Shown piece after piece: positions 9,001 through 63,107 of a stretch of 64,000 nt of DNA. A program made the translations under genes and the position numbers. How positions within the stretch are numbered: position 1 is the stretch's first letter; every line of letters starts with the position of its first letter. Source of the stretch: Cheilinus undulatus (taxonomy: Eukaryota > Chordata > Actinopteri > Labriformes > Labridae); assembly GCF_018320785.1 (NCBI RefSeq), contig NC_054872.1, positions 41,466,551 to 41,530,550 of the forward strand, given 5' to 3'. Below the pieces are notes generated by a model that ran no database searches, had not been told where the DNA came from, and saw only the letters and a program-made list of their open reading frames with translations.

Positions 9001-12000
9001 ACATGTCCACATATGAGCATTTGTGAAAACGGGATATAAAATAATTCCATCCACTGATGCTATACCTCAACAGCATCATCCACTTGAAAACATGAATATT
9101 TTGCCACATATTTACCACTTTGCCCATTTTTGCCACTTCTCTTTACCACTTTAACTCTTATTTTGCCACTTTAATTTGATTCTGCCTCTTTTCATCTATT
9201 TTTAACCACTTTTTGCCCATGTATGCCATTGTTTGGCCAATTTTGCAACTTCTTTTTGCCACTTCAACCCATTTTTGACACTTTTCACCCATTTTTTTAT
9301 TCTCCTTTTATAGTTATTCAGTTATTTCCTACCTAAGTGCTACTGAAGTTGTCTCAGTTTCATAAGCATGCATAAATATTTAAAACATTTTTTTTGTTGA
9401 TTTGATAAGAGTGGTTATTCAGGTATTATTCAAAAATAGAAAATGGGTTTTTCAGCTTAACAACAATAGATGGTGATTTTGCTGACCTAAAGGGGCCCCA
9501 GTTTGTCTGAGCCCCAGAAAGCTCTCCCCTTTACCTCCCCTTATGGGCGACCATTACCTTAACCCTTACCCAACCCTAACAGAAAGTTAATCCGTTTTTA
9601 TTTTGAGAGTTTTAGCTGTAATGTTTTTCCATTTTGGAAGATGTGGTATTTAACATTAGCAGTCTGTGAGTGTGGGCGTCTGAGTGTTACAGGCTTTAGC
9701 CAGACCCCTCTGAAGTGAATGGGTATGAATGGGTTAATAAGGTCTGTGGTGAAAAGGGCTTAAGTTGTCAGATGACTAGAAAAGAGCTATGAAAGCACAT
9801 TTCCATTTACTATTTAACAAAGTGACGTTATAGTGACATTTATCTTTTCTGTTTTTCATGTGTGTTACCAGTAATTTCATACTAAAACTTCTCTCAGCTA
9901 TCACTGCAAGCATAGTCCCTGTAGTCAGTCAGAGTAATTAATAGCAGTGGGGGTGACCCCACATTGAATCATTAAAAGCCTTTTGTTGCATAAAGACATA
10001 CAGATGTGGAGAAAAAAGCATTATATAGTTAGAATTTGTATGCAAAGGGCACATGTGTCTGCTGATGGATGTATTCCAGGTGTGATATTCATGTCACTCA
10101 CGCAGAAGTGATGGCTCTGTATCTCTCCAGCCCGGCCGTGTCCCAGATCTGGGCCTTGATGGCGAAGCCCCCGAGCTGCACAGTTCGGGAGCTGAACTCC
10201 ACCCCGATGGTTGTGCGACTGTCATGGTTGAACTCGTTTTTAGTGAAGCGGGCCAGCAGATTGCTCTTTCCTACGCCTGATTCTCCTATTAGAACCACTG
10301 CAGGGGGACAAAAAAACACACAAGCATTTGAAGCATTTCACGGATAAACCAGACAAAACTCATAGTCACGCTGCCTAATATTTGCTAATCCTGTGACTCC
10401 CACTTTATCCTCTACTGCAGCTTTTAATTGGAGCCTTTAGTCAAGGTGTGTCTTCCTCTGTTGCCCAATAAGTCCTCTGTCTTATCTGTCTAAGAGTAGA
10501 GGTAATTGCACCATCAGGGATATGATTTCCTAATTCAAACTCCCCCCACACCTTTGTGGTAAATAAGTGAATCATTCTGACTGAAGCATGCAGGGCAGAG
10601 AAGAAGAAATCTTGAGAACAGTCATGGGGAGCAATAATGGAAGTTGATCTGCAACAGAAAACACTAAATTATTGATTACAAAGGAGATAATGAGATCTTG
10701 TTCAGCTAATGGCTATCCCAGAATGCAATGCAGGGATGTCAGTTCTTAAGTAAACGTTTTTTTTTAAAAAAAGAACTGGAGGATTTTATTGTAAAAGATT
10801 TTTCTGCAGTTCCCTTACACTTAGAGAAACTTATTTTTTCTCAAACTGTCCCAAAATGGGCCTAGAAGGATTCTGTCTTTCCTCATGTATTCTCAGCCAT
10901 GTCTCACTTATAGAAAGGTCTCACACATGCAAAACACTCCTGAGAATTTCAGTAACACTTCATAAAAACTACACACTTTTAGCAGCATTGCAAAGCCTCG
11001 CTAATTAGTTGTTTATTAATACAATCATAAATGCATAATTAATGGATTAGGAAAGCATCCATAACCACCACCCTTACCCTTATCATAGGGTTTTGGAAAT
11101 GATAAGTTAAGTATTCACTAGTGATTTATTTACCTATCAATAAACCTTTTATAAGTGGGTTTGTAAATGGCACATAAATTAGTTCAGATGGAAAGATAGA
11201 TACTTTATTTACCCTGAGGGAAATTCAAGCATTCATGATTCTTCATAAATGAGTTTACTGTAAGGCATCAGTAAAGAATTTATGATTGTGTTAGTAAATC
11301 TATCCATTTTACACACTGCTTATCCCATTTGGGATCTTGAAGGGCTGGGGCTAATCCCACATGTCAATGGGCGACAGGCGGGGTATATGCTGGACCAGTC
11401 GCCAAGGCCATCCATAAGGGGGGAAAAGTGGAAAGCCTGTAAAATGATACAAGCCTTTTATTTGGTAAGATAAAAGTAGGCTAGCCACTGCACTTAACTG
11501 TTGGGTTTGTATTTTGGATTGTGCATTACAAAGTCAGGACCTTCAAAGAGCTGAGATGCCAAAAGAGGCAGGTGAAGCAAAAGACAGAGCCGACTCACAC
11601 ATTTGAACGCTTTGGCTCAGTCAGTTCAGCAACTGGATGGTAAGTCCCACAACCTGGGAAGAAACTTGCTGACAGGCTTCTTTCACAGTCAGTGCCAAAA
11701 TCTAATTAGCAAAAACTAAAAAAAAATAAGGCAAATTTTAGCCAGAAGGCTACACTAACACCTCTCATCAGATCTACTCGCACTGATATTAATTAAAACC
11801 TTGCAAAAGAACTACTCACTGGGCCTTTTTCTTGCCTTTAGGTGGCCCTGCTGGCTGCAAGTCAATCCCAGGGCTGACACAAAGAGACAGAAACCACACA
11901 CAAACTCACACCTATGGGCAATTTAGAGGCACCAATTAACCCAACATGTCTTTGGACTGTGGGAGGAAGTTTGAGCCCAGGTATCAATGAGGTTATGCAT

Positions 12001-27755: not shown

Positions 27756-30700
27756 CTATGATGCTGCTACTTGGGTCAATGGTTCCTCCAGATACTGGAC
27801 CAGGGCTTCGGCCTAGAAAGACAACGTGCACAGATCAGCCTCAACAAGGACTTTGAAAATATGGCTGAGTATTTTGTTTTATGCACACAAATGTTCATCT
27901 GTCTTTTTTCAGGCAAGTAGCAGATGTGTTTCACACAGAAAGTGAGAAAAAGAAAATACTTTCAACTAATGTTATACATACAAAGATTGTTCTTTTTCCT
28001 ATTTAACACTTCTTTTCATTGAACTGGAGTGTTATTTCTGTTTAAAATGAACTAGGACCACTGTTGTTTAGCACATCCATTTATGACCTTTCATCAGTGT
28101 GTGATGGTGTGGGGACCCTAATGTACCTGTGGGAAAGATCCTGAACAAGTGGCCGTCATTGGCAATAGAAAAATGTACAACGTGGCTTCGGTATTTGTGT
28201 CTCACTCTTAATACTAACCAAACAGTGATCACGTGTACTAATGGAAACATGGTTTACCCAGCTATTTATGTCAGTGGACAAAAGCTAAAAATGTAAACGA
28301 GTAAGACAACCTGGACATAACACTACACTGCACTCTTACATTCAGACGCAATATTAAAAAGATGTGTCAAACATTGAAATACAATATTAGCAAAGTTTAG
28401 ACAAATCAGTTACTCATTGAATGTTGAGGCCTACTAAAAAAAAACATATTCCAATGCTATGATTTTATCTTGTTATTGTACATCATGTTGGGCTCAGGCA
28501 AACAAGACATTCCTAAAAACCCATCAGGTAACTCCAAAACAAGCCCTGAACATCCTAAAAGGAAAATCCCATCAGTTTCTCAGTGAAATACTCAACAAAA
28601 TTAAAATGCTTAGCTTTGATAATTTAATCTTGTATCAAGATGTTTTTTAGTGTATAAAATAATCCATTATGTTGCTCCTCCACCACTGAAGATTTTTGTT
28701 AAACTTCTCTCTTTGCACATTAGCAGATCTTCAAGCTCTGCCTCGAGTGTAGGGATGCGAATCGAGAACCGGTTCCAGTCGAGAGCCTGTTCCAATTGGT
28801 TTAATCCATGGATATCATTAACATTGAATCTTAACGATTCCCTAATCAATGCCTTACTTCCACGTGCCTTGGAAAAACACGATCTCACGAGAGGCAGTCA
28901 GCGAAGTAAGCAAGAACAGAGGATTCAAGGAAGTAAACATGGTGGACAGTCACAAAAACAGGCTTAAGTGGTCAAAGTGTTGCTTCATTTCTCAAAAAAT
29001 GCTGTGTACAGTGTACGTGAAACATCTGACAAACAATGATTTCATGCAAGGCATGCTTTTTTTGCTGTTAATTTTGTTCAAGATGTCATTTTATTTTCAT
29101 AAGTCTAGAGATCTATGATCCAGAGACAAGTTTTATATTCATTTAAAGGTTTTAGATTTTAAATAAAATGAGCAGTGCTATTGCATTCTAATTTAAGATC
29201 AGAGATTAAAGATCTAGAGCCGTTTGTTTCAACTGATACATTTACAACAAAAAAAGATAATTTGGGTATATTTTAGCATTTTCTCCTTCCAAACACTCGA
29301 TGTTTAACATTTTTAGTTATAAAAACTTTTAATTATAGCCAGTAACTGAAGTGTGCTTGTCATTGACAAGTCACAGGAAGAAATTGTTAGGGAATTGATA
29401 AAGAATTGAAGTGATATGAAGAATGGCATCACTATCAATAAAATCCGATCAGTTCCCATCCCTACTCAAGTGGAGACTGTTGCATCCCTTAGAGGGGCTC
29501 CACCCTTGGATGGAAATGTGCTTGTATTCTAAATCTGCTAAAAGGCATCTTTATTCCTCCTGAGAAAACATATCCCTAAATGTCCTTCATATAAATAAAC
29601 TTAACAAACTAAACTAATAATTGTGTGCATTATCTCGACACAACATCTTTGCTGAAGATGTAAAAGGACCCACCACATTGCTAGAGTGAAACCCCAAATC
29701 ACAGAATTGCATTGGCTGGTACAGCAAAACAAGGTGAATTTGCGTCCAAGTGGCTGAATTTGAAACAAATGACTGATGAGTGAACAACTACATAAGTGCT
29801 GAAAATCTCACCTTAGCTTTAAGCATTCCAAAGCCCACTGTCTCTTTGGCGTACATACACAGGAGGAGGTTTGCTACACGGGTAATGGCCACTCTTCCTT
29901 CCTGAGAGAGAAAATGAGAGAGTACCAAAGTGCCACAGAGTCAGAAGGCTGAATTCAATAAAAAAAACAATCAGTTTTCTTTTCCTGGAGCTGAGTTTCA
30001 CGTGCCACAAACTTTAAGTATGACAGTCATTCATGACAGACATAAAAACGACTGCACTGGTTGTGAATTGAACTCCTCTTACCATACAGTCCATTAGTAT
30101 GAATTTAAGTTTGTCTTCATTAAAGGCTTGGTGACCATTCTTGTCGTAGGCCGCCCAAATGTTGCTGGCGATGGCAGCTGTCACTCGAGCGTCCGTGTCC
30201 CCATAGCCAGAGTAAGCCAGAAGTGAACCTTCATTGTTCAGTAACCTGGTAGAAATATTTAAGTCAATGTTTTGGTCTCCAGCAGATGAAAGTGTGAACT
30301 ATTGAATAATAGACTGAAAGTATTAACATGCACTTTTATATTAACACAGCACCGTTAAAAAGATTGACAGCTTGAAAAGGTGAGTTATAATGCAGGAATG
30401 TAATAACACCCAGCAATATAATAAAATCAGTGAAACTAAAGCAAATACAAGTTCAACAATTTGACAAGAAATATATTGAAGAAGGTTCTATCTGCTTTTG
30501 CCCTCTCTTTTTATATCAGCAGCTAAAAGGAGCAGCATTTATCAGTGTCCCATTTTTTAAGAAAAGGTATGCATATTTCATGACCAAGTAACCATATAAC
30601 CTCGGTAGGGATGAGTAATAAAATTCAGTGATACCAACACAGCCGATACCTACCGAACCAAATTACAACTCAAGTTATAGATATTTCATTTCGGTACCCC

Positions 30701-31050
30701 GCCATCCCAACACTGCACCTGCGATTTTACAGCCTATTTGGAGGCTACTTTATTTTATGATTAAATTCTAGTTTTGATCAAATAATATATTGCAAAATAT
30801 TGACCCTATTGCAACTGTCACATTTAAATATATATTTACTTATTCTTTCTGCATTGATAGATATGTAAATAGACCATTTTAAACGTCAAACACATTAAAA
30901 GTTGACAACGATGGTGACATACTTACTCCTGTACCAGCTAGCATATCGATAGCATGTTTGCTAACGGGCTAACAGTACTCACAGTGTGCTCTGGACTCCG
31001 TTTGTGTTCGCCTGGCTCAGAACCTGCGTCAACGCCTTTGGTCGTAACAT
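27756..31050 (-). CDS. lamtor2: LAMTOR2 (p14/ROBLD3), Ragulator subunit, complete in four exons
   Basis: Roadblock/LC7-fold subunit of the Ragulator complex. It pairs with LAMTOR3 and anchors MAPK and mTORC1 signalling on late endosomes and lysosomes. Exons: 30983-31050, 30083-30245, 29812-29901 and 27756-27812, with GT-AG introns and lengths 68, 163, 90 and 57 nt. These give 125 codons plus stop, exactly the usual family length. Readable landmarks are [11 protein letters not shown] at the N-terminus, [57 protein letters not shown] and the C-terminal [10 protein letters not shown]. The ATG at 31048-31050 starts the conserved MLRPK peptide. A possible poly(A) signal (TTTATT on this strand) sits at 27244-27249. 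The gene lies downstream of ubqln4 in the same orientation, as in the human 1q22 block. No defect is seen. Confidence 0.97.
28455..29580 (+). mobile_element. LINE reverse-transcriptase fragment split by an hAT element
   Basis: Translation of 28650-28749 gives [19 protein letters not shown] ... ISRSSSSAS, and after the insertion 29473 onward gives [16 protein letters not shown]-type sequence. Together these are the C-terminal region of a non-LTR retrotransposon ORF2, with frameshifts. It lies in lamtor2 intron 3. Confidence 0.6.
28750..29464. mobile_element. hAT-type MITE, 715 bp
   Basis: Ends are inverted: TAGGGATGCGAATCGAGAAC at the left and GATCAGTTCCCATCCCTA at the right. It is flanked by 8-bp duplications CTCGAGTG (28742-28749) and CTCAAGTG (29465-29472) with one mismatch. 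It sits inside a LINE fragment. No transposase frame is seen. Confidence 0.85.
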
Positions 31051-32923
31051 AACTACTTTTTAATTTTCTAGGGATGAAATAAAAAATAATACAATCTTGA
31101 ATAAACTACCAAGACAGCCTTAAAACTGTCAAACTACTCTCATGTACACAAAGTCAAGTCAGCTGACTGAGCTTACTTCCCTTTCCGGGAAAACTTCTCA
31201 ATGCATTGTGGGAATCGTATGCCTGAAGATTTTTGTTTATTAAATGACTTCTGGTTTTCTTTGATATCCATTACATTTATCAAAATGTAAAGAGTTGTTT
31301 AATTAAAACATCAGCAGGCTACAGTTGATAGGGACAGTGAGAAAACCATGTTCATCATGGTGTTGTTGCTTATTAGCTTGCTAAGTTGTAGGCGCTAAAA
31401 ATAACATGCTGACTACTTACTAGCCGTTTTTCCTCAAACTTTTTACTTTTTGCAAAATATTTGTACGGATTATATGTAAAAGATGCTTAAAACTATCACT
31501 GAGATATAACAAAGCCTTGTTATAAGTATTTGATTCTTAACCACCAAAGAACATGTCACTTAACAGCCTCTTTTCCACAAGCTTTTCACGTTTTCTATCT
31601 AATTTGTGAATCTTTTATCACTATAGATTTTTATTTTGTATGTATGCACAAAACCTACTTACAGTCTGATGAGATCAGCACTTAAGGGTCAAAATGGCAA
31701 CATTATTTAAAAAAAAATAAATTTCCTGGAATAGCATTTGCTTTTTGCAACATTTATTTGCTGATCAACTGAATAGATGTTCATCTTTTACACAAGCTTA
31801 AAGAGATTTCTGACCAGATACGACTGAATCAGTAGAGATTGTGCACATGAATATATCAATCAGGGATAAATTACCACAACACAACAGAAAATAAAGCACA
31901 GAGAAATTGAAAGTAGTTTATTGGATTGAACAGAAAAGCCTTGTAATCTGTTCACAGACTGACAACCATAAGATTTCACAGAGCATTGAGAAATATCAGG
32001 TATTGCTGATCCCAACATTATGTTTAGGCACTACACTGCTTTAAAAAAACACCAGTGTGATAGTAATTGGGTCCTAGTTGATCTTAAATCAACCACTGTA
32101 CAAAGTTCTTCAATTCTTTTAAAGAATCACTGCTATGAACCTGCAACCCATTCAGACACTTCATAAAGAATCAATTTTAAAACTTCAGACTTAAACAAAA
32201 ATATTCCTGTTTGATTTAATTTTGGAATGTTACTTGACCAGATATCAGCTGAACCCAAAGGCCTAAAGGCAACGGCATCTCTGTAGACTACAGCAGGTTA
32301 GACCTTTGCCACAGTAGGATTTGTGATTCTTCCTCCTGTTCAGAGAGATTTTTGTTCAGCTGCGTCAAAGTCAGACAGATCACATCCTTTTATGCGATAT
32401 GGGGAATGTCTAAGTGCTATATTTAGGTCTCTTCCCAAATGAAAATAGCATTATATTCTCCAACCCCATTACATCCTTGTTTCTACAAACTGCATACTTT
32501 CACTTTCTCCTCCACAAATATCCCAACAGACAGCAGTGCAACCATACGAACAAGATTAGGTAATTTCAAAAGTATTTTAAAGCTTCAATAAATACCAATA
32601 AACCAGGAGAAAGAAAGACAGAAACAAATATCATCATTCAATCTACTGCAACAGAACTTTGATTCCAAACTCTGTCTCACCACCTAAATACAATCTTTAA
32701 ATTAAAAAAATGTCAATTTTGATTCTCACTTGTCTTTACAGAAATCATCTCCAGTTAAAGTTGCAGAAGTAACATATTATTCCAAGTAGCAATAGTCTTG
32801 GCATATTTTTGCTTTAGTGGTTCACAGTAGTTAGCTTTGGACCAATTCTGTTAGAAAAAACTTTAAAGATTAACCATGACCGTCCCTAATTCTACAAGTG
32901 TTTACCCTATGGAACTGAGAAAG
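31051..32923. other. lamtor2 promoter side and ubqln4 3' UTR
   Basis: About 1.9 kb between the lamtor2 ATG and the ubqln4 stop codon. The part near 31,150-31,220 (CTTCCCTTTCCGGGAA, GCATTGTGGGAATCG) looks like a TATA-less housekeeping promoter with an ETS-like site; this is inference. The part from about 31,917 to 32,923 is probably ubqln4 3' UTR. No other gene is seen. Confidence 0.6.
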
Positions 32924-35900
32924 TTAGGCTAGCAGTCTCTCGATGGCAGCGTTGACATCCCCTCCTGTGGCGATGAGCGCCTGCAGGTTGGCTTCACGGT
33001 TGATGAAGCCCATGGCGCTGAGCTGTTCGAGCTGCTGCTGGAAACGAACCTCCGGGGTCTGAATCTGTGAGGAAAGAAAGGTCATCTGAAGTCAGACGGA
33101 GGTAAAGAAATCCAACCAAACCTTTCTTTTGTATTTATGACTGCTAATTTTGACAACTTGTTTTTAACAACAGTATCAAAAATGGGGGCTGCACAGTGGT
33201 GCAGAGGTCAGGGCTATCATCTCACAGCAAAGATGTTCCTGTTTCGAATCCCTGACTGACAGGGCCTTTCTGAATGGAGTTTGCATATCTCCCTGGGCAC
33301 TCTGCCTTCCCCCACACACTCTAGAGACATCCTCATTGGGCTGATCGGTGACTAAATTGCCTGTGGTGTGTCTAGATCTTTAGCTATGTATGTTGGCCCT
33401 GTGATTGACTGTCTAAGGTGCCCTACTTGTCACCCAAAGACATGGGATTAACTCTGTGAATCATGAAACTGATGGAGCTGCAACAGACTGAATGACTTTC
33501 TAACTATGTGCGGTCTTTTTTGTTAAAAATATTTAAAAAAAGAAACATGAAGTCAGTTGGATGAAACATACGGATGATCCTCCACCAGCAAACATCTGTA
33601 ACATCTGTTGCATGAGCTGTTGCTGGGAGGGATTGCTGGCTGAGGGGAGACCTGGTCCAGGTGCTGTTGCAGGAGGTTGTGGGTTCAGGGGCCTGTTGCT
33701 GCCCCCCATGGGTGAAGGAACAGAAAGGCCTCCGGGAGACAATCTGGACAAGAAAATGAAATGCACAAATTATATTCATATGCATTTATAAACACTACAC
33801 ATAAAGTGGAATGCCTGATTATTTATATCATCGGGTCTGAACTGGTGGGTCGGGACCCAAAAGTGGACCAGGGAGCTGTTTCTAGTGGGTCACAAATTTG
33901 TGCCTGGAATAAAAATGGGAGGCAAAAAATTTTTACCTTATTTATCCCCTGTCTTGGAACAAAAAAAAGCTGTTTTTCCCAAGATAATGAGGTAATTCCT
34001 TGAGAAACTGCCAAAGTTTCCACTCTATTTTGAGACATTGTATTATAAATAAAGTATATGCATGGATGCATGGCCCAATGTAACTAAACACTTTGCAGAC
34101 ATCTGCTTTTTAGTCATGTTTTGTTCCATCCAACATCCAAACTGCAACATTCTTCATTAAATACATTTGTGTGATTGTTCTTTTTGTTTTGTTTTTTTTT
34201 AAATTTGGGTCACGATTCATCATAAGGTAGTGATGCGTCCTGATGCACAACCAGTTGAGAACCACTGATTTATATAAATCAGATTTTTAAGTTATTATAT
34301 ACTTAGAGCAACAAGTTTTTACCTGGCCATGAATCCGGGGGCTTCTGCTTGAAGGGTCTGCAGGCCCTGTTGGATCTGTGTGAGGGCCTGAATGGCTCGG
34401 GGGTTTGTCAGCATGGATAACGTTGCAGGATTCTGTAACTGTTTTTAGGCACAAATTACTAAAGACTACCAAAAAACTAAATGGAGTTCCTAGAATACTG
34501 AAAGATTAGAAGCTTTTAATATCAATTAAAAAACAACTATAATTAGGACTTCTGTTTAAATTCTCTCCAGAGATTTTTAAATAGCGATGCTCGGACGCTA
34601 TCAGAGTTACTAGACCACCAGCTCTGATTATGTATTGTTTATGCATCATTACTGGAGTCCTCCTTTTCAACTCTGTGGTCTGTCAAAGAAAGAGAGGATT
34701 CAAATAATAAAAATCTCTGTGAGATGAGGAGGCTGAGTAAAAGATGCTAGCTTTAGACCACTGAAATTCCTTGTATCATTGCATTGATCAATCTTTTCAT
34801 CTATCCTCAGGCTTTTTTTGCATGAATGAATAAATCTAACTAAAACTCACAAGATACAAATGCAACACAAGAAATTAACTTAACATTAAAATTAACTTTT
34901 AACATCTACAGCATGTGTAAGCAAAATTTAAATAAAACCAAAGATAAAAGTGCCATCAATGAAGATAACAGATTAACTTCCTTAGAGAAAATAAATTCAG
35001 GTAAAAATGGTTAAAAACAGTAAAAAAAAAATCACAAAAAATACATGAGCAAAAGTAGCTCTTCATATGTATTATTCTTTACTTAGTTACTAAACCCCAA
35101 GACCTTTTTTTTTAACTGTAAGCCTATGTACAAATGCATCTAAAAAAATCCTAGAATATCAATTAAAAGTTCACTTTTCCCATAATTTACTTCAGAAAGA
35201 TAAATGTCCATATATTCTAGATTCATCTCGTACTAAGTAATTGTTTTAATCTTGTTGACTATGGTTCACAGCTCATGAAAACCAAAACTCCACTATCTCA
35301 AAATCTTAGAATATTCTGGTAAAGTTCAATTTGCAAAGGTTTCCTGAGCCTTCATCCTCTCACTCTAGTTCAGTACACACAACCACAATCATGGGGAAGA
35401 CTGCTGACTTGACTCCGGTCCAGAAGACAATCACTGACACCCTCCACAAAGACGGTAAGCCACATACAGTCACTGCTGCAAGGTCTGGCTGTTCTCAGAG
35501 GCTGTATAAAAGCATACTCATGAAAAGTTCACTAAAAGGGAAAAGTGTGGTTAAAAAAAAAAAAGGAGCACAAGCAACAGGGATGAGCTCAGCCTTCAGA
35601 GGATTGCCAAACAATGCAGATTCAAGAATTTGCATCCAAATACTAACTTTTTTGACACTCCGGTAACTAATGATAAATCTGCTTTTAATTGTTATCATCA
35701 AATCTGTAAACCCTATTTTTGATTTTCTCATGTTATTTTTTGAATTTCCTGTGGAGATGCACCTCTGCCTTTGGGGTTTGGTTACTCTTTAATCTGTTTT
35801 GTCATTTGACCCTAACAAAGATTACCAGTGCTTATGTCTTTGCTTTGCATTTCAGAGCCCTACTGTGAAAGCTCTCTCTGCACTAACCTGTCTCATGAGC

Positions 35901-38900
35901 TCAGGGTTGCCTAACATCCGGGACATGTCTGGATTTCGGTCCATAATTTGCTGCATTTGAGGATTGCCTGCAAAAATCTGTCTCATCAGGTCTGGGTTGG
36001 ACAACATGTTCTGGACCAGAGGGCTCCCCATCATCTGTGACAGCATCTGTGGGTTTGACATCAGCTGACTCTGCACCTGCTGCTGCATCTCCATGAGGTT
36101 AGGTGAAAGACTGCCCAAACCGAACAGGCTGGACAGGTCACCAAGTCCACCTGAAGAGAAGGGGTAGAGCTGGTTAGTGCCTTACAGTTATGGTTGGAAC
36201 TCATATGAATGGGGTGTGGATATTTTTCTTTACTCTTTGCTAAAGGTTTGTAAAATTGCTGAGTGTTCGCTGTGTGTTTTTGCTGTGTTAAAGAGACTCA
36301 GTGTGCAAGGGAAAAATCTAGTTTTATAAAGGAAAGAAAGGTAATGTGTGGAAAACTCAGACAGGTGATTCACTCTTACTCATCACATTAACAGGTTGTG
36401 TTGGTCTCTGACTCGTACCACCTCCTGTTCTGTCTGCTGCAGGGGCAGTGGTGCTACTGCTGTTATTTGGAGCTGCTGCAGAACTTGAACTTGCCTGAGA
36501 TGTACTACCAGCTGTTGATCTGAAAAGAAAAAGAACATTTAAAAGGTAAATAATCTTCCCAGACATGAGCTTTACCTCTAAACTTTAACATATCTCATAA
36601 ATTGCACTAACTTTGGGACAGTCTTTATAACAAGATGAACAGTCATCCCATCTTTGATACCATGCTGGCTTAAAGTATCGGCGTCCTTCAGAATCTTTCC
36701 TGTAAATATCAACACCAACTGCTCCTCCTTGGCCTGGAACTTTTTGGAGACCTCTTGTCTGAACTGGAAAAAGAGAAACCAGAGCAAGAACAAGTTAATA
36801 GTCAGAAAAAGTGGGCAACTGCCATAAAGTCATCAAGAGACAACGGTTCTTTATATTCTGGTTGCTTTGGGCATTTGAGTAAATGCAGCCATGTTGGAAA
36901 TTTTCAAAAGTTCAATATCAACTGATTTAATTATATGGTCCTATTTTGAGGAATGTCCACATCATGAAATGAGCAGATAACTTGCATAAACCTTTGCAAA
37001 CTCCACATGCAAACATGTATGAGTCTCTAGTATTTTGTTGTCACTGCAAATGCAATCAAATTGCCATCTACAGAGTGAAAAAAACGTAGGCTAACCAGCA
37101 CATTTTTGCTTCAAGGATCATGAGGAGGTTGACCGAGTTAATCCATAAAGCAAGTCATTTTGGTTGATAGTTCTTCTAACACAGACGTTAGAAGAGAAGT
37201 GTCACAGATCCCAGCCACAAAGATTTGTTTATCAGTGTTGCCTAACAGCCACATCTACAAGCATCAGGAGTTTCAGTTGAACAAGAGACCGATGTTAACT
37301 TGTGACTTTCAGCCACTGCATGTGTCATAGTCATGACAGATTTTCCCCACAAAAGCCTATTTTTCTGTTGTCTTTAAATTATATCTGATATTTTGACATC
37401 ACACTTAAAAAATAAAGAAAGAGGCATATGTGAGGAGAAGTCTTTCAGCTTTCAACATCTGTCATAACTACAACTACAAGTGCATTCGTCTTAAATTCAC
37501 CAGTTAGCACGGTCACTCATTCAACAAAAACACCAGTGAGTTTAACAAAATTCTACTATGGTGTTGTTAGTTTAACAAGTATAAACAGCAAATGAAAACA
37601 CAAGATGGCATTCCTCTCAAACAAGACACTCAAGACAAATAACATTGGCAGAAAGCTACATTTTGACATTGTTATACAAAGCTTGCCATTTTTGACAAGT
37701 GTGATGTTATTTTCTAGTATGTATGATGTTTTCCTTCAGTGGACCCTGAAGTTTGCCTACTTGGCCACTTTGAAAGTAATAATCTCAAGAGTGAATATTG
37801 CTATTAAACTCAAGGAAATTCTGCTTACCACTACTATAAAGTGTTTAGAATTTAAATGGAAATCACATCTCTGCATTAATGCAGGACTGGGGTTTTGGAA
37901 GTTCATAGCTAATTTGTCACCTAAAGAACCAGGGTTGAATATTTTACAAAATACTGGCATAATCTCATCTACAAGGCAATGCTTGATCTTCTTCCTTCCT
38001 ACCCTCTGACCTACATCAGTCAGAAAATCTCTGGAACCTATCTTCTTCGCTCTTAGGGTTGTTGTGTTTTTTTTAAACGCCTGTCCCAAGGGTCAGAACT
38101 AGGAAAAAAAAAGGCCTTTAAATTTGCTGCTCCTTTTGGCTGGAATGAATTACATAAGGACCCCAAACTCAATAGCTTTGTCTCATTGGGTGCTTTTAAG
38201 AGGATACTGGTTGATTTAGAGACAGACCAGTGTTAACATTAATATTATAACACAGACTATACCCTATCACAGTCATACTCAACGCGTGGCTCTTGAGCCA
38301 TTGCAAGTCACATTAATCAGTTTGTTTCCTAACACTTACAGTTAGCTTTAAATGTTCAACCTTATTTTTTGTCTGTACAATTTCATCGCCCTAATTTGCT
38401 ATATGCTGCCCCTTTTTTGCCACTTTTAATTCATTTCTGCTGCTTTCAGCCCATTTTTGCCACATCTTGTTGCCACTTTACCCAATTTTTGCCCTTTTTC
38501 ATCTGTTCTAGCTACTTTTACCCGCTTTTTTTTTTTTTTTTCAATTTTCCCTCTTTTTTGCCACCTTTTTCCCATTTAAGCTTCCTTTTGCCATTAAGTC
38601 CCACTTTACCCATATTCCCACTTTTTTTTTTAACAGCTTTTTGCCCATTTAAGTCACTTTTAATCATTTAAGCTGCATTTTTACCACTTTTTGACCACCT
38701 GTAACCCAATTTTTTGTGTCTTTGCAACCATTTTTGCCACCTTCCACCCAATTTTGCTCATTGTATACCTAATTTAACCCTTTCACTCATTTTCCCCACT
38801 TTTTTGCTGCTTTTTGACCATTTTTGCCACTTTTCACCATTTAGATTGTGGCTCTTGCAAAAGCATTTTTCAACAATTTGTGTCTTTGGCTGAGCAGGGC

Positions 38901-40048
38901 TGAGTAACACTGCCCTATCATAACAAAGACCAGAGTTAGTTTATTTGTAATAACTATAGCAGTGAAGTAGTATTGCTCTTGGATTCAATGAAACTGTTCT
39001 AGTAGTAATCATAGAAGTAAGACTGATGTAAAAAGATGAATCATTGATCACTGTAACACTGGCATTATCAAAAATAATGCCAGTGAAGAGAAAGATATAT
39101 AAACTATATAAAGATGATATAGCAATGTAATTTGAACAGTTTATAGCAGTAGTTATATAGTTATAACAACAAAAACAACAACAACAATAATTATAACAAT
39201 AATAATAATAACAATAATAATAATGTACTGTTGTTTTTGTGGGTATGGCTGCTTATTATCTGTCTGTAACTTTGCTAACCGTGCTGCTACCCTTTCTTGA
39301 CCAGGACACTCTTGTCACCTAAAGAATCAGGGTAAAATATTTTACCAGGCCTGGTAACCCTTTCTGGTCAATGTGGAAAACCACGCTACAACTGTACAGA
39401 TATATTCTGGAAAACCATTGTTTTTCTAACCATCGAAATGAGCAATGGATTGATTACTCTCGCAGTCTAGTTCAGCTGTTTGTTTTAGTTTTAATTCAGT
39501 GTCTTTCATAAAAGTTAACTGTAATCATTGACATGCATGTGATTTTCAGAACTGAGTCTTTTATCACTCTCCGACAGTTGTCCGTCTCTCATTGTAGTTG
39601 GACTGAAAAACGGAAAATAAAACCAAAGACTGTGGTGTTGTCGTCATAGTTACCGTAATTTCGCTGTCATTTCCGCGATCTCAACAACAGCAATTTTTGG
39701 TATTTAAATATATTTTAGTAGAAGGTAAACTGAAGACTTGGGTGCCAAAATGGCAATACATGTAATGATGAAATGATCTGGAGGGCAATGACAACGTGGT
39801 AAAAAGACAAAAAAAAAAAAGACATTTCAGTTGAGGTTAACGCTTTGTCATCCTAGCATCATTTCGGCTGCCGGATTGGGAAGAAATGACATTTTCCTCA
39901 CCTGACCGACAGAGGAATCCTCCGGAATCGTTATTTCCTCTTTTCCATTCGGGGTCTTTACTGTAATCACAATCATTGATCCTCCGGGGGCTACTTTTTC
40001 ATCTTTTCTGGCTTCTCCACCGCTGTCCGTGCTGCCATTATCCGCCAT
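32924..40048 (-). CDS. ubqln4: Ubiquilin-4 (UBL-STI1-UBA shuttle), central exons missing
   Basis: Ubiquilins carry ubiquitylated clients to the proteasome: the N-terminal UBL binds the proteasome, STI1 repeats bind clients and the UBA binds ubiquitin. Exons: 39902-40048, 36612-36763, 36380-36519, 35888-36150, 34323-34432, 33572-33743 and 32924-33064. The first two encode the UBL ([13 protein letters not shown] through [14 protein letters not shown]). The third is a Ser/Ala/Thr linker. The fourth is a Met/Gln/Asn-Pro-rich STI1 segment ending NPELMRQ. The fifth holds [18 protein letters not shown] and the last the UBA ([20 protein letters not shown]). Exons corresponding to about 220 residues of human UBQLN4 (rest of STI1-1, linker, STI1-2) are not found in 34433-35887. 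The exons present still join in frame to 374 aa, against about 600 in human. Paralogue choice rests on the RAB25-LAMTOR2 neighbours and the UBA and linker sequence. A possible poly(A) signal is at 31917-31922. Confidence 0.9.
33184..33490 (+). repeat. tRNA-derived SINE in a ubqln4 intron
   Basis: GGGGGCTGCACAGTGGTGCA (A-box side) and TTTCGAATCCCTG (B-box side) form a tRNA-like head. The body reads GAATGGAGTTTGCAT ... CTAAATTGCC, a family common in teleosts. Confidence 0.8.
33829..34267 (+). mobile_element. hAT-type MITE, 439 bp, in a ubqln4 intron
   Basis: Flanked by a perfect 8-bp duplication ATTTATAT (33821-33828 and 34268-34275). The right end AACCAGTTGAGAACCACTG is the inverse of the left end, CATCGGGTCTGAACTGGT, with decay. 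No coding capacity. Confidence 0.85.
35145..35775 (+). mobile_element. Tc1-like remnant at the ubqln4 exon gap
   Basis: 35331-35640 contains ATCATGGGGAAGACTGCTGA, then GTCCAGAAGACAATCACTGA and CACCCTCCACAAAGACGGTA. These are the N-terminal transposase-region hallmarks of a common fish Tc1-like element. The right side ends TGTGGAGATGCACCT, like that family's terminus. Most of the transposase is deleted. Confidence 0.75.
37960..38235 (+). mobile_element. LINE C-terminal fragment
   Basis: 38090-38220 translates with indels as GSELGKK ... [13 protein letters not shown] ... [13 protein letters not shown], typical of fish LINE ORF2 ends. It lies in ubqln4 intron 1. Confidence 0.6.
38270..38912 (+). 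mobile_element. hAT element with pyrimidine-rich internal array
   Basis: A perfect 8-bp duplication CCCTATCA flanks it (38262-38269 and 38913-38920). Its ends are CAGTCATACTCAACGCG, and the inverse of GGGCTGAGTAACACTG. The interior (38400-38850) is the TTTTTGCCACTTTT array. It lies in ubqln4 intron 1. Confidence 0.88.
39171..39225 (+). repeat. ACA/ATA-rich simple repeat
   Basis: Runs of CAACAA and AATAAT trinucleotides inside ubqln4 intron 1. Confidence 0.8.
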
Positions 40049-40514
40049 ACTTACAAACAGCTCTCCTTCATTGGTATGTTCGTACGAGTTTACGCCGAAT
40101 CGGCGTGTCACTGCCACCTATCGGTCATTATTCGAACAACAGCTAGACAGAAAGAGCCTGTCATTGTGGTATTGATCATTTTACCATGTCTGATTTTTTT
40201 TTTAATTATCAATTTATTTCTTCTCTTACATATATCGTATGAGTATGATGGCTGATAACACTAAACTTATGTTTGAAGCTTCCCTGTATTTGTCATTGCA
40301 GAGTCTGTCCACTTGAGTGCGGTGTTATTTTGCTTTAAAGCTGAGAAAACTACAAGACACATGAGCAGAGCTTAAAATGAAGAGTAAACAATATAAAGTG
40401 CCTCAATAAACTATTTTCACTGTATATTTCAATAGCCTAAACACATTTTCAACAAGATGTGTTTAGGCTACATTATTGTGAGCCTCAGGGATTTTGCGTT
40501 GGTCGGCCAGAGTC

Positions 40515-41466
40515 ATACAACCAAAATTCCCCAAAAAGTTGGGGCACTGCGTAAAATGTGACTAAAAACAGAATGCAATGATTTGCAAATCTCACAAACC
40601 CATATTTTATTCACATTAGAATAGAAACAACATATCAAATGTTGAACAGACACATTAAATCATTTACACATGGTCACACTGAGAAGCCAGAAAAAAAAGA
40701 TTTTTTTCTCTTAATATGCGATCATTCTTGGGTTAATCTTGTGTATTTTTTCAACAAATTCAACCAATAAATAATTCCATAAATCAAAATGTTTCCGAAG
40801 CAATTAATCCATAGTAGCATGAATCTGAATATGGGGTGCAACAAGCTTTAAGCTATAAAGGAGGCGGCTGGGGTGGGGGAGGTGAGGCTGGCTACCAGCT
40901 GATTGCAGCTGAGGATATGACTTTCATTTCGCCGCTGCAAAAAACTGATTTATTAAACTGGTATTTTGACACATTTCACATTAAAGAAATATTTCAACTT
41001 CTGTGATTTGAAAATTGCAGCAGGCCATATTGCGATTTAATCTAATTTGCAATTAATTGCCCAGCCCTAATTCATAAACTACATACCACATCCATCTCAA
41101 CAGCGTGGCTTCACAGTAGAACGGTCTGGGTGCTGAACTGGCCTGTCAGACCTTTCACAAGGTGCATCATAGAATTAAAAATCCACCAAAGAAAACCCAG
41201 GACTGTTGAGAAGCCTACATCAGACAAGAATGGGAAAACATTCCTCTCCTAAAACTCCCAGAAGTTTACAGACTGTCATGAAAAGAAGAGGGGGTGCTAC
41301 CAATGGTACACATGGCCCTGCCCCTACTTTTTCATGAAATGGTAAAATGTCTCAGTCTAAAATGTTGTTAATGTTCTACTGTGAATAAAATACAGGTATA
41401 TGAGCAAATTATTGCATTCTGTTCTTAGTTACATTTTACACAATGTCCCAACTTTTTTGGAATGAG
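40515..41466 (+). mobile_element. Tc1/mariner-type relic, internally deleted
   Basis: Starts near CCCCAAAAAGTTGGGGCACT and ends ATGTCCCAACTTTTTTGGAA, an inverted pair. It has the same family body as the element at 745-3149, with GAATGCAATGATTTGCAAAT near the start. Only scraps of transposase remain (41100-41290). Confidence 0.8.
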
Positions 41467-43772: not shown

Positions 43773-46114
43773 TTCATTTTATTTGGCATCCTGAGTATTT
43801 TGTCGGAGAAATTTCCAAATCCATGTGTGGTGAGTTACAAAGCTTTATAACACCGTCATGTGATCTTTTGTTTTATAGCCAACATGTATTTTTGTTTTGA
43901 ATAAATGGAGGAGAAAATGTACTTCTGTATCTTACACCCTTGTGAGTTTGTTGTGCATTAAATTAATTGTTCACCTTTTTTTGTAGGTCATCCTCAATGT
44001 GATCCTGAGTCTGTTAGGAGTTGCTTGTGCCATTGCAGCCATTGTTTTCTACAGCATCAATATTGCAAACGTTTGGAGGTGGTGGGGTTGCCATGATTAT
44101 TATTTCGGCATAGAAAGGACGACAAGTCCATCTCCTGATCCGAGGGACTGCTTGGAGACAAAGCATCTGATGGTGGTATGTGTGGTGGAAATGGTATTAA
44201 ATAAATATAAATACTGACCCCATCAGAATAAGTCTGCAGATAAGATAAAAAAAAAGAAACAGAAAAATACTTTTAAAGGTACTTTAGTTTCTTTTTGTCT
44301 GATCAGAGGATTTTGAGGAGCATCAATGCTGTGTTGATCATCCTGGCGGTCCTGGAGCTCTGTGTCACCATCAGCTCTTACATTTTGGGGATCAAGGCCC
44401 TGATTAGGTCTAAAAGGAAAGACAAGGTAAAAAAAAAAAAAAAAGGATTTTTTTCTCTAACCTTTTTTACAGGTTACAAACAGGAAAAAAGCCGACTGAA
44501 CAAAAATACTCTCAAAGGAGAGAACAAGTTCACACCACACTGAAAATGACTTTACTGTGACTTTATCATGAGCAGCCATAGCCAAAAGCATGAGCCAGCA
44601 TAGTCAAACAGGCGTACACAGGTGGGCTTAATATATGAGGTCACGTGACCAACAGGGTGGGAAAGTAGCTCCCACCAGCAGCGAAATGCAGGAATTTTTG
44701 AGCAGTGAATTTGCTCAACTTACTGGCTACTGGGGCAGTTAAATAAACATAGTCTCATCTAAAGAGGGATTTAGTGAGAGACATAAATTAAACCCTTTAT
44801 GATGGGTAAAATGTGGTAAAAATAAATTATCAGAAAGCAGCAAAAAAAGAGGATAAAACTGGCAAAAGATGGGAAAAATGGACGAGGAGAAATGGAAAAA
44901 AATGGGTGGCAAAAATAAATAAATAGGTTAAAAGTGGAAAACAAGGGCAAGAAAAATAGCAATAATGTCTTAAGGATGGAAATAACAGGCAAAAATGGGC
45001 AAAGAACCAGAAACAAAATGGGTTGGAAGTGGCAAAAATGTGTTAACAGAGGCAAAAAAAAAAACTGACGAAAGTGGTGGAAAGTTGAAAAAAGTGGGAA
45101 AAAATGGGTAATATGCAAAATACTGGTAAAAATGAATGCAGAGTGGCAAAAGTTGGAAAAATTGCAAAAAAAAAAAAAAAAAAAAAAAATGGATGGAAAG
45201 CAGGAAAATTGGTGAAAAAGTGGTAGAATTGACCAGAAAGCTGCAACAAGAGGTTAAACATGGGGGAAAATAGGGGAAAAATTGGGCTAAAAGAAGTTGA
45301 AAAATTGGGTGCTAAGTGGAAATACAGTGGCCAAAATGGGGAAATGCAGCAATAGAAATGGTTTTAAACAGTGGAAATTTTATAAATGGGAAAGAGAATT
45401 GGATAAAATTGACATTAAGTGGCATAAATATGGAAATAAGTAGAAAAATGGGTAACATATGGCAAAAGGATAAAAGTGGCAAGTAGAAACGGCAAGAAAT
45501 TGGTAAAAAAGTTGAAAAACAGTGGTAAGAATGAATAGAAGCAACTCCCTTATATTAAATAGCCTATAACTTGATTATTATAAGCCTTGAGTTTTTCTCA
45601 ATGTTTCTTCTTTGCTTGTGAAAAAAGAGTGGCTTATGAGAATGTTTGTGGCAGGTAGATATTGGATTGCACCAGCCACAGAGGCAGATAGATGAAGATG
45701 CCTACCCTGGTGACCAATCATCATTTATATCATTCAGCATGTAGATCATTCAGCAGAGCAACTAACATGACATAAATGATACAACAGTTACCAGGAAACA
45801 TGATAATGTGGTAAGTGCAGCACATATAGTTTTAATTGAAAACATGTGATTAGAAACAAAAGACACATGTTACAAAAACAAAAACGACAAACTAATTCCC
45901 ATTCTCAAGATCAAAATCCTTGTTAACCTAGCTTATTAAAACAGCTTCCTAATAATCAGTTTAAACCTCGGTGCAGCAGCTGTCCCTCTGTGTTTTACTG
46001 CTGTAAAATCTTACTGAATACTGGAGCATGCTTTTGATTTTACTATTTTTTTTTCTCTTTCAGCACAATGATGACCTCGAACACAACAAACCACTGCTGG
46101 ATGAGGTCATCTAG
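43773..46114 (+). CDS. MS4A/CD20-like four-pass protein, copy A, 5'-truncated
   Basis: Member of the MS4A (CD20-like) tetraspanning membrane family. Exons 43773-43829, 43987-44175, 44307-44426 and 46064-46114 match exons 3-6 of the complete copy B, in the same phase and with good splice sites. They encode the end of membrane segment 2 (FILFGILSILSEKF), segment 3 (ILSLLGVACAIAAIVFYSI), a large extracellular loop with two cysteines, segment 4 (INAVLIILAVLELCVTISS) and a short acidic tail ending DEVI. This is 138 codons without a stop. The first two exons (start codon, segment 1) are not found upstream, where TE-like GA-rich sequence begins about 520 bp before the first exon. It may be a truncated gene, or use an unrecognised first exon. 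Splice sites and frame are intact, so I do not call it a plain pseudogene. Confidence 0.7.
44790..45545 (-). repeat. Purine-rich degenerate array in MS4A copy A intron
   Basis: Same unit type as 42170-43250 (AAAAGTGGCAAAAATG, GGTTAAAAGTGG), plus a 24-base or longer A run near 45166-45189. It fills much of the 1.6-kb intron between the last two exons of copy A. Confidence 0.75.
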
Positions 46115-49890: not shown

Positions 49891-52800
49891 ATGTCTGTGA
49901 CCATGACCAGAGGTGACGGGGTCACTGTGTTCACTTTGACCTCGGACCCCCAAAGTTCTTTACCTCCAATATGCCAAATCCTCAGAGGTCTCTGCTACAG
50001 CCCTGTCTGCTGCTCTGTGTCTCAGCGCCTGAAGAAGTTTCAGGGAGCTTCTCAGTCAGTCCTGGGGGTGAGTCACAACCACACACGTTTTTCAACTTAT
50101 TCTGTGAAACTTCAGCTTTAGAGTGTTTACATACAACTCAGCAGCTTTTAAATTATTTTTTCTTCTTCCACACAGGTCTGATTTAATCTTTTATGAAATA
50201 ATTTGTTTCCAGAGAAACATTAGCTCAAGCAAAATGTTAATCCAACTGAATTTTTCATTCTCTTTCCTAACAGTTGTATGTTGTTGTCATAATCACGTTG
50301 GAGTCTTGTTTTAAAAGAGTGTTTTCACAATACTGTCAGGACTCTGTACCTCTAGGATCAGGTAAAGTTATTTTTAAGCAACTTTTAGGAAAGACAATGA
50401 AACTTAGAGAAAGAGGTCCTATTAAAATACTCTCTGCACCACAGCTCTGATCTCTAATGTACTCAAACCATTGCACATGGTAAGTATAGTAAAATTGTAC
50501 AGGTACATGTTGTTCACGCTGTGTTTGCTCCTCCTCAGGCCCTGCATATTATGGTTGGTTTGCTGAACATTGGCCTTGGAGCAATCCTCCTCAGTGGTGG
50601 TCCTGGCTCTTGGTGGCAGATGGATGAGTTGATGTTTCCTATTTGGTTGGGAGTACTGGTAAGCAAACCAACATTTTATTTGTTTTTTTTGGTTACTTTG
50701 CTTATTAGCCAACATTTTCCATAATTCTAATTTAAGTCTGGTTTGTGTTTTTGAATAACTCCAAGTCTTTTGTGAAGCTAGAATTAGGAATGATGCAATT
50801 TCATTGGGGGTTTGCAGTGATTCTGGGGTATTACAGCTTGTTCACACAGGACAGGACCTGCTCTGCATTAGCGTGTTGACATTGATATTAAGATTAAAAC
50901 ACCAGAGATAGTTCACTAACCCTCTGAGCAGCTTTGAAAACGATTTTCAAGAATATATCAAGAGGGTTTTTGGATATTCTGACAGACTTTTTTAATCAGT
51001 GCAGATTTGTTTTTTTTCCTCATCTCATTAAAAGTAGTTTTTGATTATTTATTTTTTTAACTGATTACAAGATTTGCCTTCTGTACATTTCCCTGTCTTA
51101 CATCTGAGTTCACATGTTTTTATGGTTGTGAATACTTGACCAAAAACAGAGCAAAGACATATTTCTTATAGGCACAGGTCAACCCAAAAACAGCTCCTCA
51201 CAGCTTCTTTAATGTTTTAGTTGTCAGTTGACATTAATAGGTCTCATTATTAAATTGCTTACCCTGGTGCATGAGTGTTATCCTTGCTTCATGAAATACT
51301 TAAGTTGAGGACAATAGTAATGGCTTGTGGTTCTCAGCCTTGGTTTGAAAAGGTGAAAGGTTAAATCATTTTCTTTTTTGTCTCTTCTTTAGTTCATTTT
51401 ATTCGGCATCATGAACATTTTGTCTGAGAAGTTCCCAAGTCCATGTCTGGTGAGTAATACAGCTTTATAACATCTTCATTTTAGCTTTCATTTGATGGTC
51501 AACTGTTATTCATGCTTTGTATAAATCAGTGTTACTCAACCCTGCTAAACAAAGAGCCAAATTGTTAAAAAACAAAATACCTTTGCAAGAGCCACAATCC
51601 AAATGCTCAGTTGAGCTGAGTGGGAAAATGGTCTGAAACACCACTGACTGCTCTATGAGAAACGGATGTAAATATGAGTTAAAAATCTGTTCCTTTACAC
51701 AACTGCTAGTTCAGACCTTAAATTCCACAATTTTCCACTTCAAAGTATTGTTGTAAAAAAAGTACAGTGTCAGGAAATATCTGTACAGTGTCACAGTGAA
51801 AAAAAGCATTTACTATACATGGGTGCTAGTGCTGCTTGGTTTTTACATTAGAGAAAAAAATATCACGATTATTCTAAATTGAAATTGAGATCACAATAAG
51901 TAAACACAATTACTCATGGGTTGAATTGAGATCCGCATCAAAGCATTTATTGAATTTCACACCTTTAACACTTTAACAAAAAAGCAGGAAATGAATACAC
52001 TAGTAGGTGCCATGGACCACCCATTCCTAGTCTGCACTTTGTGCATTGTCATGTATCCCTCAGCAGTGTTTCTGGTGTGTTTGGTTTTGAATAAATTATG
52101 TATTTTTTTCTTTTTGCAGGTCATCCTCAGTGTGATCTTGAATCTATCAGGAGTTGCCTTTGCTATCACAGCCATCGTTCTCTACATCATCAACCTCTTA
52201 AACATTTATTTGTGGTGGATGTGTCATGATTATGATTATGACTACAGATACAGACACAGGGTGACTCCTTCACCTGAAGAAATGACCAAATGCCTGGAGA
52301 CACAAGATCTGGTTCTGGTATGTGTTTAAAAAATTGTATTTAGTGAATGAAAACACACGCTGTGTAGCTGAGGAATGGAAAAATTATTTTAATGGTTAGA
52401 TTTCAACTTTAAAGTTGGATCAGGGATTATTATACAGACTTACAACAAATTAACTATGAAAAACTTTTCAAAGGAGTGATTTTAAAGGTCACATCGTTTC
52501 TTTTGTGTCTGATCAGATGATTTTAAGGGGCATCAACGCTGTGCTGATCGTCCTGGCAGTCCTGGAGCTCTGTGTCACCATCAGTTCTGCTGTTTTGGGG
52601 ATCAAAGCTCTAAAGCAGAAGACAAAGAACAAGGTAGAGTCTACACATCATATCTCACTGTTTAACTTGTTAACACAGGGAATACTGGCTGAACAAACAT
52701 GCTCTCATTTTCTTTGTGAAGCATTAGATGTCTGAATGTCTGTGCTGCTATGAGTTTGGCCTTTTGAACTAATGTCACATCTTCACTCCTGAAAGCATCA

Positions 52801-61611: not shown

Positions 61612-63107
61612 ATGTCTGTGACCATGACCAGAAGTGACGGGGTCACTGTGTTCACTTTGACCTCGGACCCCCAAAGTTCTTTACCTCCAATATGCCAAAT
61701 CCTCAAAGGCCTCTGCTACAGCCCTGTCTGCTGCTCTGTGTCTCAGCGCCTGAAGAAGTTTCAGGGAACTTCTCAGTCAGTCCTGGGGGTGAGTGTTTAT
61801 GTACAACTCAGCAGCTTTTAAATACGTTTTTCTTCTTCCATACAGGTCTGGTTTAACCTTTTATGAAGGTTTATGAAGGTTGTTTCCAGAGAAACATTAG
61901 CTCAAGCAAAATGTTAATCCAACTGAATTTTTCATTCTCTTTCCTAACAGTTGTATGTTGTTGTCATAATCACGTTGGAGTCTTGTTTTAAAAGAGTGTT
62001 TTCATAATACTGTCGGGGCTCTGTACCTTTAGGATCTTCGGGTAAAGACAATGAAACTTAGAGAAAGAGGTTCTTTTTAAAGTACTCTCTGCACCACAGC
62101 TCTGATCTGTAATGTACTCAAACCATTGCACATGGTAAGTATAGTAAAATTGTACAGGTACATGTTGTTCACACTGTGTTTGCTCCTCTTCAGGCCCTGC
62201 ATATTATGGTTGGTTTGCTGAACATTGGCCTTGGAGCAATCCTCCTCAATAGTGGTTATGGCTCTTCGTGGCAGATGGATGAGAGCAAGTATCCTATTTG
62301 GATGGGAGTACTGGTAAGCAAACCAACATGTTATTTGTTTTTTTGGTTATTTTGCTTATTAGCCAACATTTTCCATAATTCTAATTTAAGTCTGGTTTGT
62401 GTTTCTGAATAACTCCAAGTCTTTTGTGAAGCTAGAATTAGGAACTCTGCAATTTCATTGGGGGGTTTGCAGTGATTCTGGGGTATTATGGCTTGTTCAT
62501 ACAGGACAGGACCTGCTCTGCGTTAGCATGTTGACATTGATATTAAGATTAAAACACCAGAGATAGTTCACTAACCCTCTGAGCAGCTTTGAAAACGATT
62601 TTCAAGAATATGTCAAGAGGGTTTTTTTTAATGATCTGGCATATTTCTGAAACAGTGCAGATTTGTTTTTTCCCCATCTCATTAAAAGTAGTTTTTTTTT
62701 TTTTTTTTTTTTTTTACTGATTACAAGATTTGCCTTCTGTATATTTCCCTGTCTTACATCCGAGTGTACATGTTTTTTTATGGTTGTGAATACTTGACTA
62801 AAAACAGAACGAAGACATATTTCTTATAGGCACAGGTCAACCCAAAAACAGCTCCTCAATGTTTCTTTAATGTCTTAGTTGTCAGTTGACATTAATAAGT
62901 CTCATTATTAAATTGCTTACCCTGGTGCATGAGTGTTACCCTTGCTTCATGAAATACTTAAGTTGAGGACAATAGTAATGGCTCATGGTTCTCAGCCTTG
63001 GTGTGAAAAGGTGAAAGGTTAAATTATTTTCTTTTTTGTCTCTTCTTTAGTTTATTTTGTTCGGCATCATGAACATTTTGTCTGAGAAGTTCTCAAGTCC
63101 ATGTCTG
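61612..63107 (+). CDS. MS4A/CD20-like four-pass membrane protein, copy C, cut by window end
   Basis: Exons 61612-61788, 62194-62313 and 63051-63107 correspond to exons 1-3 of copy B, with the same lengths, phases and splice sites. The rest lies beyond 64,000. The N-terminal 59 residues differ from B at only three positions, and the third exon at one of 19. The second exon differs at eight of 40, seven of them in the first extracellular loop (B: SGGPGSWWQMDELMF; C: NSGYGSSWQMDESKY). Flanking introns are very similar, so this is a recent tandem duplicate. Two head-to-tail copies of the presumed promoter block precede it (55.7-59.9 kb), followed by a minisatellite. Intron 3 has gained a 250-bp repeat that B lacks. 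Confidence 0.88.

Follow-up and report, generated by a model that had tools for sequence, protein, structure and literature searches.

A diverged second copy of ubqln4 in Cheilinus undulatus lacks four central exons and probably still encodes a short UBL-STI1-UBA protein

Introduction

Yeast Dsk2, as described in two reports, is a monomer of 373 residues with one STI1 (PMC13083928; PMC13083955). For the vertebrate protein UBQLN2, dimerisation is reported to need STI1-II (PMC13083928; PMC13336661), STI1-I is described as binding a test client more tightly, and ALS mutations are placed in both STI1 domains (PMC13083928). According to the survey of Marin 2014 (PMC4230246), Sti1 motifs typically number four in UBQLN1, UBQLN2 and UBQLN4, two in UBQLNL and usually one in UBQLN3 and UBQLN5, the loss of Sti1 units being a feature of the mammalian testis ubiquilins.

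The same survey gives actinopterygians, e.g. Danio rerio and Salmo salar, a single ubiquilin, UBQLN4 (PMC4230246). In human 1q22, UBQLN4, LAMTOR2 and RAB25 are listed within one reported duplication (PMC4276019). In the literature library searched, fish duplicate gene names returned no publication, and none of the titles listed by broader searches concerned a fish ubqln4 duplicate; the words 'duplicat', 'paralog' and 'ortholog' do not occur in the text of a zebrafish UBQLN4 paper (PMC5451210).

The present study characterised a stretch of 64,000 nucleotides of the Cheilinus undulatus genome (C8:41466551-41530550, hereafter the window), taken from an assembly of 1.17 Gb in 46 contigs, in which ubqln4 had been predicted to lack its central exons. 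Our reading, which we consider probable, is that the window holds a second, diverged ubqln4 copy, most likely a teleost ohnolog, that underwent a deletion from intron 4 to intron 8 and still encodes a protein of 376 residues, predicted to act as a Dsk2-like shuttle.

Results

Gene model and domains of the window ubiquilin

The window gene lies on the minus strand at 40048-32924 and consists of seven coding exons separated by six GT-AG introns, with zero internal stops; its joined coding sequence of 1,131 nt specifies 376 amino acids and a stop, with start and stop codons intact. The seven exons correspond, in the same order and with the same phases, to exons 1-4 and 9-11 of a full-length copy on contig C16, three of them (C16 exons 2, 4 and 9) being identical in length at 152, 263 and 116 nt. 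Exon 1 (39902-40048, 147 nt from the ATG to the GT donor) carries the start codon and the first part of the UBL, with 46% identity to its C16 counterpart; exon 2 (36612-36763) supplies the rest of the UBL, with 75% identity over 48 amino acids; and exon 3 (36380-36519, 140 nt vs 149 nt in C16) encodes a low-complexity linker. Exon 4 (35888-36150, 69% identity to C16) encodes the N-terminal part of STI1-I and has NPELMRQ as its last residues; as had been noted, it closes at phase 0 and the next coding exon resumes at phase 0, a GT donor standing directly after exon 4. This fifth exon, the homologue of C16 exon 9 (34323-34438), encodes the C-terminal part of STI1-II, (L)QNPATLSML; the sixth, homologous to C16 exon 10 (33572-33743, 172 nt vs 163 nt), is linker; and the seventh, homologous to C16 exon 11 (32924-33064, 141 nt), holds the UBA and the stop codon and is 91% identical to C16 over 43 amino acids.

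The original prediction began the fifth exon at 34432, and its phase of 0 stands. Homology to the C16 copy nevertheless makes 34438 the more likely start, where the acceptor aaaacag is followed by TTACAGAATCCT ('LQNPATL'), as ...atgcag is followed by ATGCAGAACCCA in the C16 counterpart. Positions 34438-34433 in fact offer two acceptors six bases apart (aaaacag followed by TTACAG and then AAT), both of which keep phase 0 and which differ by two residues more or fewer.

Pfam recognised in the window protein a UBL (PF00240, 64.3 bits, residues 28-97), a C-terminal UBA (PF00627, 31.3 bits, residues 339-374) and an STI1-type domain (PF23195, 71.5 bits, residues 182-254, profile positions 1-68 of 70), the signal of the last coming almost wholly from exon 4, which scores 74.5 bits alone. 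Among 11 PDB matches to the UBA, the three best are chains named ubiquilin-1, -4 and -2. Judged by its sequence, with a UBL, at least one STI1 unit and a UBA, the window gene is a member of the ubiquilin family. Gene model and Pfam results together support the predicted shortened, in-frame ubiquilin with intact UBL and UBA, most likely produced by a real genomic deletion.

Over exon 1 the observed/expected CpG ratio comes to about 1, against 0.17-0.52 in most 300-base windows outside about 39,400-40,400, and this CpG-rich stretch would fit a promoter. Intron 1 contains a diverged repeat array at 38400-38850 with units like TTTTTTGCCACTTTT (direct-repeat families D1-D3). Rfam returned 0 matches at gathering scores over 29000-41000.

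Absence of the central exons

Relative to the 11-exon C16 copy, the window gene is without exons 5-8, which amount to 159 + 223 + 140 + 84 = 606 nt, or 202 amino acids, with phase 0 at both ends; the loss had been estimated at about 220 residues. In their place stands one intron of 1,449 nt (34439-35887, minus strand), whereas exons 4 and 9 are 6,717 nt apart in C16. When the 202 central residues were searched against this intron by tblastn (word size 2, no filter), two chance-level matches were obtained, the better with 18.1 bits and E = 11, while the same search recovered the flanking exon 4 at E = 1.5e-38 and exon 9 at E = 5.9e-16, so the claim that the 1.45 kb does not encode the central exons holds. 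Across the whole window, these residues produced just two matches below E 0.5 (E 3.8e-7 and 0.017), both in exon 4 of the gene itself, which is a related repeat, and the intron DNA gave short matches only against the C16 locus (E 0.02-0.07).

The repeat element noticed earlier in the intron was also recovered: a decayed interspersed repeat at 35123-35634 (query 685-1196) has at least 43 further places in the genome at 72-84% identity, counted from the best 40 of 4,960 candidates scored. By its reading frame it is presumably Tc1-like; Pfam found 0 families at E <= 0.01. It may, speculatively, have taken part in the deletion.

The repeat also bears on whether the exons were dropped from the assembly, or whether the deletion is a variant of the sequenced haplotype only. 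Its position in the shortened intron speaks for such an artefact, but the window has no N bases anywhere, the genome is assembled into 46 contigs, and among the 20 of 22 families listed no direct-repeat pair that has a member in 34300-36200 exceeds 40 nt, the longest showing 78% identity and lying at exon 4 itself. Genome-wide searches for the lost block covered exons 5, 7 and 8, and that with exon 5 gave a single match, in C16; of the 44 matches in a capped listing for the intron, none placed the part outside the repeat anywhere else. We thus regard an artefact as improbable, and the assembly collapse that had been raised as an alternative is not favoured.

The reading frame is less telling. 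In C16, all of introns 4-8 are phase 0 except intron 6, which is phase 1, so a deletion starting in intron 4 keeps the frame at three of its four possible ends (introns 5-8); the intact frame is accordingly weak evidence of selection and not very remarkable.

A third ubiquilin-like locus on C5

Because exon 5 was found solely in C16, misplaced exons are unlikely. The search with exons 7 and 8 hit C16 and C5 twice each, the C5 matches being an exon 7-like piece at C5:40999947-40999819 and an exon 8-like piece at C5:40998773-40998684, both on the minus strand with AG and GT flanks. Had the exons been relocated rather than lost, these pieces would be where they now lie. However, over the 4.2 kb examined (C5:40997000-41001200) the C5 locus has its own minus-strand homologues of exon 9 (beginning MQSPELLSAMMNPRAMEALL, with AG and GT flanks) and exon 10 (ending QQQQQFVQQMLQALANMNG), both of which the window gene still keeps, and its exons 7 and 8 are 53% and 63% identical to those of C16. 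Exon 5, like exon 4, was not found on C5 at E <= 0.001 in a search that scored only pre-screened candidates, which diverged exons could escape. Relocation is on these grounds very improbable, and the C5 pieces were rejected as the window's missing exons; with exons 9 and 10 of its own, the locus is better read as a third, diverged ubiquilin-like gene. Near it, in searches with the same pre-screening, no UBL was detected at E <= 10 (16 matches) and no UBA at E <= 1 (3 matches genome-wide), and the locus may be a ubiquilin reduced to the STI1-II half or one too diverged at both ends.

A full-length ubqln4 on C16 and the origin of the duplicate

A PF00240 profile search of the genome gave 37 matches, and of the 29 loci compared with the window protein one alone matched it as a ubiquilin, through exons 1, 2 and 4 (C16:32992000-33001999). 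A complete ubqln4 is located there, at C16:32994858-33005029, with 11 exons, GT-AG introns, 581 amino acids and no stops. Exon-level searches of the genome agree: exon 4 had 2 matches (C8 and C16); the UBL exon had 16, only those on C8 and C16 being strong and the others at E >= 0.006; and the UBA had 3, again strong on C8 and C16, with the third at E 0.0066. The full-length copy rules out the window gene as the sole ubiquilin of the genome, so the predicted lack of central exons in ubqln4 is true of the window locus and not of the species.

A UBL exon at C8:41198442-41198561, on the contig of the window and some 300 kb away from its ubqln4, was considered as a second ubiquilin and rejected, the 10 kb around it being without a match to the window protein. 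By its sequence this exon resembles BAG6, a ubiquilin partner.

Both ubqln4 copies have a UBL, a UBA and a RAB25-like neighbour. Unlike the C16 copy, the window copy is without the C-terminal half of STI1-I, the middle linker and the N-terminal half of STI1-II, and its protein ends in ERLLA without GSQPS. The RAB25-like gene of the window (3454-10298, minus strand) has exons at 10298-10101, with a Ras family score of 81.9 bits, and at 3672-3454, and a weaker piece near 338-571; these are 86%, 85% and 66% identical, respectively, to the RAB25-like gene beside the C16 ubqln4, and at both loci the gene is found downstream of ubqln4 and in the same orientation. Between the two genes of the window sits a LAMTOR2 exon (30083-30244, minus strand; Roadblock/LC7 domain, 40.6 bits), with an earlier exon near 31,050-30,980 recognised by eye; the 60 kb of C16 examined did not yield the second LAMTOR2 exon. 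The domains of these neighbours were assigned by Pfam, and the gene names LAMTOR2 and RAB25 are presumptive.

The window gene thus has the neighbourhood of the UBQLN4 class (LAMTOR2 and RAB25) and, with exons 5-8 absent, not its two full STI1 regions (four Sti1 motifs). Since a RAB25-like gene stands beside both copies, and LAMTOR2 also at the window, the window gene probably goes back to an old duplication. An ancient doubling of the block, in the simplest case that of the whole teleost genome, would explain both the synteny and the near-saturated dS reported below, and the window copy is perhaps an ohnolog.

In another part of the window, MS4A/CD20-like pieces were seen at 43987-44540, 50458-50721, 51925-52732 and 62113-62409, those at 43987, 50458 and 51925 scoring 16.9-20.7 bits with PF04103, below the cut-off of 27.9. 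By eye, the piece at 50458 closely resembles that at 62113, which suggests tandem duplication.

The join between exon 4 and exon 9

As a result of the loss, the C-terminal part of STI1-II, encoded by exon 9, follows immediately on the N-terminal part of STI1-I, encoded by exon 4. At the join, NPELMRQLQNP has the same spacing as LPIFLQQMQNP of STI1-II, although the repeats allow another register. Exon 9 raises the PF23195 score of the window protein by 0.6 bits (75.1 vs 74.5 for exon 4). Placed behind C16 exon 4 as a control, it contributes 2.1 bits; the gain from the natural exon 5 in the full-length copy is about 34 bits (122.6 vs 88.7). With PF17830, exon 4 scores 14.3 bits, exon 9 14.4 and the two joined 19.4, below the cut-off of 29.1.

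In 2,000 shuffles, the alignment score of exon 5 with the window exon 9 was equalled by 1.0%; the corresponding figures are 2.9% for exon 5 with the C16 exon 9 and 0.45% for exon 4 with the C16 exon 9. As exon 9 is at least as like exon 4 as it is like exon 5, the likeness runs through the repeats in general and does not single out the replaced half. A search of the PDB with the hybrid STI1 gave nothing convincing, the best match being yeast STI1 at E 0.052. By Pfam, exon 9 does not qualify as a substitute for exon 5, and the indications that a complete hybrid STI1 fold may form are weak to modest.

Constraint and divergence

The two copies differ by a dN of 0.258 and a dS of 1.73 over 368 aligned codons, a low dN/dS. 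Being pairwise, this value pools the whole period since the duplication and does not reveal whether constraint persisted once the deletion had occurred. Overall, dS is near saturation, and in exons 2 and 3 it is saturated, hence not estimable; for the UBA, dN is 0.067 and dS 0.66. Against PDB ubiquilin-4 (2knz), the window and C16 UBAs each differ at 3 of 42 residues; the window UBA differs from PDB ubiquilin-4, -1 and -2 at 3, 2 and 3 of 42, so that the UBA alone does not decide the class. The window UBL scores 102.1 bits against PDB ubiquilin-1 and that of C16 115.8 bits, which marks the window UBL as the more diverged.

In neutral simulations under a substitution-only model, the coding sequence stayed stop-free in 160, 49, 13, 1 and 0 of 400 runs at 0.02, 0.05, 0.1, 0.2 and 0.4 substitutions per site, respectively. 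The window gene has thus probably been coding for most of its history.

These data must be weighed against an early pseudogene, in which a redundant second copy has recently shed exons 5-8 and is now drifting, its open frame being a remnant of past constraint. A full-length ubqln4 is present to make the copy redundant, the deletion removed the natural C-terminal half of STI1-I and left a join that Pfam credits poorly, and the UBL has diverged further than that of C16. Yet all seven exons, the splice sites, the start and the stop are intact, the window UBA is no further from PDB ubiquilin-4 than that of the full-length copy, and a neutral sequence seldom stays open at 0.1 substitutions per site, even if it does so often enough at 0.02 to leave room for a very recent loss. 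On balance we hold a drifting pseudogene to be unlikely, if less so than an assembly artefact, and the best reading of the sequences is that the window gene is a long-constrained duplicate carrying a real deletion.

Discussion

For the ubqln4 duplicate, we propose that exons 5-8, and with them 202 codons, were removed by a deletion running from intron 4 into intron 8, and that a UBL-STI1-UBA protein of 376 residues would still be encoded because introns 4 and 8 are both phase 0. The deletion would then be real and fixed and the protein made. If so, the short protein is expected to dock on the proteasome via its UBL and on ubiquitin via its UBA, and its clients would be held by at most one STI1 groove, as in yeast Dsk2. 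The functions attributed to STI1-II, namely dimerisation and multivalent phase separation, would be absent from it. The status of Dsk2 as a one-STI1 monomer, taken with the need for STI1-II in UBQLN2 dimerisation, leads by analogy to the prediction of a monomeric shuttle with no more than one client site, which would be less prone to form condensates and work alongside full-length Ubqln4.

A bolder version can be put forward tentatively, and we consider it doubtful: the gene would have returned to the layout of yeast Dsk2, with a single hybrid client groove, joining the N-terminal half of STI1-I to the C-terminal half of STI1-II, under selection, and a monomeric Ubqln4b would act in parallel to the two-STI1, condensate-forming Ubqln4.

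The significance of the locus depends on its fate. Were the short form merely a decaying duplicate, it would be ordinary; if it is expressed and constrained, it offers a natural experiment on the role of the second STI1. A real short form would also correct the single-ubiquilin picture drawn for ray-finned fishes in 2014, as the genome examined here has two clear copies besides a third that is diverged. The loss of internal exons by a duplicate is an ordinary kind of change, but a vertebrate ubiquilin built like Dsk2 would count as a new variant.

Among known systems, the mammalian testis ubiquilins UBQLN3, UBQLN5 and UBQLNL are likewise vertebrate ubiquilin duplicates with fewer Sti1 units, but they arose independently in mammals, whereas the window gene occupies the UBQLN4 neighbourhood of a fish. 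Yeast Dsk2 shares the arrangement of a UBL, one STI1 region and a UBA and is nearly the same length (373 vs 376 residues). The two differ in that the window form would derive from a two-STI1 vertebrate gene by the loss of a block, its putative single STI1 being a hybrid of two repeats.
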